From Patescibacteria group bacterium (GTDB lineage Bacteria > Patescibacteriota > Patescibacteriia > UBA1558 > UBA10009), in assembly GCA_018818425.1 (NCBI GenBank), contig JAHISB010000032.1, positions 1 through 42,059 of the forward strand: a DNA stretch of 42,059 nt, given 5' to 3'. Shown in pieces: positions 36,838 to 42,059 of the stretch. Both the position numbers and the translations under genes were made by a program. Each line of letters begins with the position of its first letter. Position 1 is the stretch's first letter. The notes beneath the pieces are model-generated. The model ran no database searches and was not told the origin of the DNA. It saw only the letters and a list, made by a program, of their open reading frames with translations.

Positions 36838-38404
36838 TAATATCGGATAAAGTTAAAGCTTGGCTATTTAGTGATATAGTAGACAATTTAATAATATCGG
36901 ATAGAAAGATTATATAATCATCGCCATAAAATAATCTTTATTTTTTTATAAATATTAAGTAAAATTTTATAATTTTGTTAGCATTATCCACTTTAAGTAA
37001 TATCGGATAATTTTTTAATTAATTTGAAACGTAAAATAAAGCATGTTTTTTGTTTAAGGCTACCCGATATCGGATTTTTTATTTTATAAATCCAATCATT
37101 TTTAGAATGGAAAACAGATATTTTATTCATTTCATCACTTTTTTAGAAAGATTTTTTTTTGTACTTTTGGCGGCAACCCGACTGCCGGCAAGGCAGGAAG
37201 TACCAAAATCGCTGGGGGCAGCAAAACTCGCTCTTGGTACTAATCATCTCTTTATGGCTAAACACGACGCTCCTGCCTGCCGGTCTTCGACTCTGATGGA
37301 TGTGCTCTCAGACTTAGACTTGACTGAGCAGTCAGGCAAACATTTGCTGCACCAACTTTAAGTTGAAAATAACGAATAATGCTTTAATCTACTGATATCG
37401 GATAGAATAAAAACCGCCACATTTTGGAGTGATTATTAGCTTATATTTATGGGTTTATACTCAAGCGCTTAAATAATTCCGTATAATGCCCCAAAGCTTT
37501 ACTTTGAAAAATCCTCTGATATTAAAGTAAAAAATTCACTTTAATAAATTAAATAAATTCGGAATTATAAAAGCGAAGGGGTATAATTGGAATTCTTTCT
37601 ACCCAGTTTCAATTAAAATAACGGTTATTTTGCTCCATATCTTGAGTCAATTACGTTGGACATTTCTTCGGATATATATCTAGGCGAGCAGGTAAAATCA
37701 AGCGATATTTGAGCCCTGTTAAGAGGGATCTATCTGCTTTCTTTTTATCCGATATTACCTTTATTTTATACTAAACAGTGTTGATGAATTTATTTCCAAA
37801 ACGGGCCTTAGGTAGCCAGGTAAAGCGAAGAGTAAATTCCACGCCATTGCTTATGGTTTTATGATGCGGGGCAGAGCGGCCTCCACAGGGTAACAATTGA
37901 GTCGATGATCGGCATGAAGTAATACTTGTTTAGTGACAGATTCCGTGGTTCTGACGGAGCTTAATTTGAGTGAATCAGAACTATTGTATAAGTCATTTAA
38001 ACGTCTTTGATTTTTAGATTAATTTAGACATCTAAAGAGGCCTTTAAGGATAGTTAAAGTAGTGGATAACTGTTATTAAATTCCCGCTTTTTTAGTTTGT
38101 AAAGTTATTGTTGTGGATAATTTATTATTTGAAGTAAAATATCGTTAAAATAGCTTATAAATTTGATAAAAAAACAAATATCGGATAATTGGATAAGCTG
38201 TGTGAAAATACCTGTAAAAAATGGGGATAATGTGTTATAATTAATATCGGATAGCCGATAATTTACCAAGCTATTTTTAAGCTAAATTTGGCGTTAAAAA
38301 TAGCTATTAACCGATATTACTTTTTTAAGTAATATGACGGTAATTTTTATTAGTCCCCATGCCAAAAACAAACAAGGAAAGAAAGACAAAAATATCCGAT
38401 ATTA
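36838..38404. promoter_or_regulatory. Iterated TAATATCGGATAA motif cluster
   Basis: Copies/variants at 36838, 36892, 36998, 37064 (palindromic CCGATATCGG), 37393, 37745(-), 38176, 38242, 38307(-), 38392(-). Confidence 0.85.
37456..37585 (-). mobile_element. 130-bp MITE-like element, copy 2 (inverted relative to copy 1)
   Basis: Reverse complement aligns to 28371-28500 over the full 130 bp with about 3 mismatches. Confidence 0.75.
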
Positions 38405-41400: not shown

Positions 41401-42059
41401 GGGGGCAATGTGGGCATCGGCACCACCACACCGGCAGCTCAATTATCTGTCCATGTCCCGACTGCCGCAGAAACCGCTATTATGGTTGACAGCGTGGTCG
41501 GCTACTCCAGCAACTTTTTAGACCTTAAAGTGGCTTCTTCCACCGTATTTCTTATCGATTCAACGGGAACCATTACCTCTGGCTCCTGGACCGCCACAGT
41601 GATTGAAGAAATATACGGCGGCACCGGTCAAAGCAGTTATGCTGCCGGCGATATTCTTTATGCTGGTGGCGCTGATTCACTCACCCGTTTAGCCAAAGGA
41701 GCAGACGGCAAGGTCTTAAAGTTAGCAGGCGGCGTTCCCACCTGGGCAGATGATAATAGCGGCAGTGGCGGTAGTCCTAGTTTTTGGTCAACTACAACCA
41801 ATAACAGAATTGTTTATCCAATAGATACTACCGATATAGTAGTAATTGGAGATAATGCCACCAGAACCACCAGCTCTATTTTTGAAGTTATTGGTTCATC
41901 ATATTTTTCTAATAATGTCGGCATCGGCACCACCACCCCGGCGGCCCGTCTTTCGGTAGCCGGCGGCTCTTCGCCCATGATTATGGTTGACGCCCCTTCT
42001 GGCTTCACCAATAATCTTTTAGACCTTAAAGTGGCTTCTTCCTCCAAATTCACCATTAA
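38359..42059 (+). CDS. Very large surface protein (3' incomplete): HTH + hydrophobic/signal segment + collagen-like + tail-fibre-like repeats
   Basis: Open frame from ATG 38359 to the window end (not in the ORF track). HTH: [49 protein letters not shown]. Hydrophobic: [27 protein letters not shown]. Collagen-like: [40 protein letters not shown]. Repeats: [10 protein letters not shown]. Confidence 0.9.
   Translation, partial: [1233 protein letters not shown]
40120..40236 (+). repeat. Collagen-like Gly-X-Y tract (13 triplets)
   Basis: In-frame [39 protein letters not shown]. Confidence 0.9.

Follow-up and report, generated by a model that had tools for sequence, protein, structure and literature searches.

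A giant Patescibacteria surface fibre with an N-terminal helix-turn-helix domain and putative operators at its own gene

The window, which is the whole stretch of 42,059 nucleotides analysed here, is a contig of a Patescibacteria group bacterium and ends within a giant gene, whose 5' part occupies positions 38359 to 42059 of the forward strand. The frame opened by the ATG at 38359 is free of stop codons for 1233 codons and runs off the contig, whose end (42059) is also the window end. The encoded 1233 residues contain a helix-turn-helix (HTH) domain (residues 31-83, positions 38449 to 38607), a single transmembrane (TM) segment (residues 170-188, 38866 to 38922), a collagen Gly-X-Y segment (residues 588-627, 40120 to 40239; Pfam PF01391, E=8.8e-7) and VGIGT-type fibre repeats (40770 to 42059) that continue off the contig, all on the forward strand. 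A preliminary description of this DNA had proposed a giant open reading frame with these parts, and each of them was found where it had been placed. The approximately 400 residues that follow the TM segment look mostly helical, as judged from the sequence. The Rfam matches in the window were tRNA and tmRNA only.

The fusion would be lost if translation started internally, downstream of the HTH, as the preliminary description had pointed out. We scanned the interval from the HTH to the TM segment and found no ATG; Met64 lies within the HTH, and the next Met, residue 191, lies past the TM segment. The sole other start-like codon in this interval is a GTG at residue 153, where a translation start is formally possible. 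An artefact, in which translation begins past the HTH or the assembly fused two genes, would fit with ATG 38359 being preceded by no obvious Shine-Dalgarno sequence, but it is opposed by the missing internal ATG, by purifying selection on the HTH and by dozens of independent contigs that carry the same fusion, and we consider it extremely unlikely. When the HTH is compared with its homologue in the nearest relative (G002), the nucleotide differences are concentrated at the third position of codons (14/8/26 and 14/10/31 by codon position). Based on this bias and on the order of HTH, TM segment and long ectodomain that is repeated across the phylum, the N-terminus is judged to be truly coding, with the HTH under purifying selection.

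Only one other contig end in the same genome (C36; L266) contains VGIGT repeats. The frame on that contig comprises 2457 codons, is open at its 5' side and stops ahead of a new gene. No exact overlap was found between the window end and this contig, but its frame may well encode the C-terminal remainder of the window gene; if so, the joined protein would have about 3,700 amino acids or more. A complete relative (L087) has a Peptidase_S74 chaperone towards its C-terminus, and the window copy ends at the contig end. Such chaperones are typical of trimeric tail-fibre-like proteins. The window protein shares Gly-X-Y and VGIGT repeats with collagen-like and tail-fibre-like surface proteins (Scl1/Scl2 and Peptidase_S74 fibres), and we know of no described collagen-like adhesin with a cytoplasmic DNA-binding domain.

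Profile matches and a fold model identify the HTH as a MerR/excisionase-like winged HTH of the HTH_17 type (PF12728). The Pfam profile matches 12 of 12 aligned family members (best E=8e-10); the window copy itself scores E=6e-4 and 20.4 bits, which is under the Pfam cut-off of 27 bits. The AlphaFold (AF2) model has a pLDDT of about 92 over residues 31-80, and its predicted fold, a helix-turn-helix with a beta wing, is like those of the solved Xis, MerR and BldC structures. Foldseek matched the model to RdfS Xis, GlnR-DNA and BldC-DNA with probabilities of 0.97-0.99, but with E > 0.01, and a PDB sequence search with the HTH returned only spurious ankyrin matches. The recognition helix of the window HTH is CSYSQEYLS. 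The fold and the DNA-binding helix are shared with HTH_17/excisionase/BldC-like proteins, which are normally small and soluble, whereas the window HTH is carried on a membrane fibre and has a putative lineage-specific operator code. The nearest relative of the domain is that of G002 (= L047), with 72-75% identity. Within the same genome, the full HTH is present in the window gene only, and contig C15 contains a second, partial and marginal match (22 residues, E=9e-4). In several relatives (G002, G007, G013, L056, L070, L077 and L086) the HTH is duplicated in tandem at the N-terminus. Both copies of G002 appear to be under selection, as they differ from each other mostly at third codon positions (4/5/26).

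When the same arrangement of HTH, TM segment and fibre was searched for elsewhere, it proved to be widespread in Patescibacteria. An N-terminal query matched in 14 of 53 relatives, and over half of the matches were long ORFs; a scan of GTDB genomes gave 51 loci, and the HTH was present in 59 of 380 genomes drawn evenly across the phylum. The recurrent layout consists of one or two HTH copies, a linker of variable length (roughly 30-230 residues), one TM segment and a long ectodomain. Collagen segments and VGIGT repeats recur among these relatives, and the longest of them (L038; G013) is a 5863-residue HTH-HTH-TM-fibre protein that is complete on one contig. In total, 36 non-duplicate genes with a YSxEYLS-type recognition helix encode proteins of 400 amino acids or more that have a TM segment. 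Besides these, the same HTH is found at the C-termini of Fic-domain proteins, in short HTH-TM proteins and in proteins of about 70-83 residues that consist of the HTH only.

The TM segment of the window protein has a net charge of +3 on its N-terminal side and is neutral on its C-terminal side, and it is predicted to be an N-in signal anchor. Since positive-inside charges flank the single TM segment in most family members, the predicted orientation places the HTH in the cytoplasm and the fibre outside. The preliminary description had noted a signal-peptidase-like site, AMA followed by HYQ, after the hydrophobic segment and had suggested that cleavage is coupled to the regulation. The AMA site is indeed present in the window protein (residues 190-192, positions 38926 to 38934, forward strand), but it is not conserved across the family: an AxA sequence after the hydrophobic segment occurs in the window protein and a few relatives, and most others lack it, many having Lys or Glu there. 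Signal-peptidase cleavage was rejected as a family mechanism on this ground, and an uncleaved signal anchor is likelier. As the AxA site is not general, the fibre probably keeps its HTH. Coupling of the HTH-fibre protein to export or to host contact is possible.

The DNA ahead of the gene contains a putative operator word, TATCGGATA, whose core TATC-S-GATA is a near-palindrome. Exact copies lie on the forward strand at 36841 to 36849, 36895 to 36903, 37001 to 37009, 37396 to 37404, 38179 to 38187 and 38245 to 38253, and on the reverse strand at 37746 to 37754 and, within the first codons of the gene, 38393 to 38401; a one-mismatch copy, TATCGGTTA, lies at 38308 to 38316 on the reverse strand. 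These eight exact copies, within 1.6 kb before or just inside the gene, are 8 of the 17 in the 1.23-Mb genome, while 0.010 were expected in shuffles of the region, and all six exact copies of TAATATCGGATA in the genome fall within 36838-38404. Among the sites checked, the copies of TATCGGATA outside the promoter region are mostly inside genes. From the near-palindromic core, we infer that two HTH copies, as a dimer or as tandem HTHs, would occupy each site.

The extent of this array bears on the possibility that the HTHs serve as a DNA-membrane anchor, holding the fibre locus for co-transcriptional insertion or for chromosome organisation. Eight exact sites spread across 1.6 kb would suit such an anchor, and membrane-bound CadC is known to be captured by its DNA sites (PMC6320335). 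However, the spread-out array of 1.5 kb is unusual, as the majority of relatives are limited to 2-4 promoter-proximal sites, and TM-less Fic proteins use the same site type, as simple autoregulation predicts. An anchoring role appears unlikely to us.

The word is also found at the genes of relatives. G002 (a single contig of 947 kb) has five copies of TATCGGATA, four of them no farther than 320 bp from the start codon. A de novo k-mer count, for which the motif was not supplied, recovered TATCCGATA upstream of 32 of 53 homologous genes, against an expectation of 0.6, and the 64 genes with a YSxEYLS helix have 66 TATCGGATA sites, compared with a mean of 0.34 in shuffles. In an independent validation set, from which a duplicate was removed, the word was present at 11 of 14 genes, among them 5 of 5 that encode a TM protein of 400 amino acids or more. 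The exact word is absent within 400 bp in 16 of the 36 long fibre genes, several of which have one-mismatch or farther copies. Genome-wide counts of TATCGGATA in relatives did not separate HTH-bearing from HTH-free genomes.

Comparison of the genes by recognition helix indicated that the DNA word tracks the helix and not the protein attached to it. With the YSxEYLS helix, TATCGGATA precedes 40 of 64 fibre or HTH genes and 5 of 6 Fic genes. Fic genes with a YSAKYLN-type helix have TATGGTATA in 12 of 12 cases and TATCGGATA in none of the 12; Fisher tests within Fic genes gave 5e-5 and 7e-4, values that shared ancestry makes optimistic. The remaining helices have their own words: GGTTGGATA at 3 of 3 YSQAYLG Fic genes, TAGCCGATA at 5 of 9 YSADYLN HTH-only genes, and, at YHQDYLG giant fibres, ATCTCGGAT in 9 of 17 and TATCGGATA in 7 of 17. 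Such covariation is predicted if each HTH binds sites at its own gene, and is not predicted by a separate regulator common to all of them. The preliminary description had allowed that the HTH might be a merely structural domain; its conservation and the covariation with the operator argue against this, and the HTH looks functional, with the covariation giving strong, if indirect, evidence of sequence-specific DNA binding. The suggestion that it acts on the adjacent TAATATCGGATA array, in turn, is most likely right, as the word clusters at the gene and follows the recognition helix.

We also considered that a separate trans-acting regulator uses these sites, and that the fibre HTH is structural or mediates protein interactions, for example in dimerisation or as an export tag. 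HTH folds can be repurposed and direct binding is deduced here from covariation, and a second conserved word, TTATCCACA, at these promoters suggests that other factors may act there. Against this, the word goes with the helix in proteins that have nothing in common besides the HTH (fibres, short HTH-TM proteins, HTH-only proteins and Fic proteins), a different helix comes with a different word, and in the genome of the window the word is concentrated at the one gene with a full HTH. A separate regulator is quite unlikely in our estimation.

Fic proteins with a C-terminal HTH_17 domain were observed at L042-L046, L048, L053, L064, L211, L223, L231, L234, L236 and L250. At their promoters, the word of their own HTH occurs either as an inverted pair or as one exact copy, an arrangement that looks like simple autorepression. 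These proteins are like the window protein in having the same HTH and, immediately upstream of the gene, copies of an identical or related word, and unlike it in being soluble enzymes with a C-terminal HTH and no fibre. HTH-only proteins of 73-80 residues with a YLN-type helix were found at L199, L202, L204, L206-L208 and L217, and many genes of this type have TAGCCGATA together with an extended -10 element, TGCTATAAT, upstream.

The position of the operators relative to promoters was then considered. The predicted promoter of the window gene (38213 to 38241, forward strand) matches the consensus with a weak -35 element, TGTAAA, a 17 bp spacing and an extended -10 element, TG-TATAAT. The operator at 38179 is centred at about -66 from the predicted transcription start site (TSS) and that at 38245 lies on it, and these are accompanied by the copy in the first codons and the distal array. 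Across the family, the operators form two main groups, at 0 to +26 and at -46 to -79 from the predicted TSS, and this bimodal placement may be compatible with repression or with activation. Where Fic genes have TATGGTATA, this word overlaps the -10 box, which is, as far as predicted promoters can tell, a clear repressor position.

We suggest that the giant surface fibre would be held in the cytoplasmic membrane by one TM helix with its N-terminus inside, and that its cytoplasmic MerR/excisionase-type HTH would bind TATC-S-GATA (TATCGGATA) in its own promoter and intergenic region and regulate transcription of its own gene. We give this self-directed regulation a probability of about 0.78. Given such regulation, repression through the sites at the transcription start would probably be the main effect, since sites in that position point to repression, and the sites near -47 to -69, just upstream of the -35 element, may activate or help looping. 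The purpose might be control of copy number: as more fibres accumulate in the membrane, or unexported in the cytoplasm, more HTH domains would be available and the promoter would be shut.

The winged helix of CadC and ToxR is of the OmpR type; their sensor domains are small, and their targets are mainly other genes. Like them (PMC6320335, PMC5430869), the window protein has an N-terminal DNA-binding domain, one TM segment and a C-terminal extracytoplasmic part, and would work from the membrane. It differs from them in its MerR/excisionase-type HTH, which is not of the OmpR/PhoB type and rules out membership of the ToxR/CadC family, and in the fusion to a giant structural fibre with sites at its own gene. 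The best explanation is a variant on membrane-anchored regulation: a single giant structural protein would be both the regulator and the product that it regulates.

As an extension of self-directed regulation rather than its opposite, a pull or binding on the fibre could alter the inner HTH by oligomerisation or proteolytic release and so switch fibre production, the giant adhesin acting as the sensor of a ToxR/CadC-like receptor. The topology fits, CadC is a membrane-integrated regulator of such logic (PMC6320335), and very long membrane proteins of CPR bacteria such as Vampirococcus are presumed to function in host attachment (PMC8080830). On the other hand, a Pfam profile search of the fibre ectodomain (window and L087) found no known sensor domain, no protease site was identified, and the variable linkers between HTH and TM segment argue against tight mechanical coupling; signalling of this kind seems doubtful. 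In a broader and tentative version, which we regard as possible at best, the fibre would be its own transmembrane transcription factor and would relay to its own promoter whether its outer end is exported, attached or under tension, and a diversified helix/operator code would separate paralogous circuits across Patescibacteria.

Patescibacteria are tiny bacteria with small genomes that are believed to rely on host contact via surface structures, and very little has been described, to our knowledge, on how these structures are controlled. We likewise know of no precedent for a structural surface fibre with an operator-specific regulator of its own. The main text of the Vampirococcus paper mentions neither a helix-turn-helix nor collagen (PMC8080830), and searches of the open-access literature returned no HTH-bearing self-regulating fibres. 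If the proposal is correct, such a fibre would be a very economical control circuit. The pairing of a protein domain with a DNA word offers a testable handle where genetics is hard, and the helix-to-word table is a ready recognition code for this HTH_17 clade that predicts targets in dozens of genomes.

Finally, TTATCCACA, a DnaA-box word, lies at 38112 to 38120 on the reverse strand and is over-represented ahead of the family's fibre genes; L083, L077 and L089 are examples of relatives with the word upstream. It precedes 31 of the 64 YSxEYLS genes, 5 of 24 'other' HTH genes and none of the Fic-HTH genes. An origin of replication (oriC) was rejected as its explanation: dnaA is 203 kb off in G002, and TTATCCACA occurs in short loci around dnaA in just 1 of 9 genomes. 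Since a TTGACA -35 box often follows it at a distance of about 8 bp, we treat it as a second, HTH-independent promoter element, through which DnaA may possibly link fibre expression to the cell cycle.
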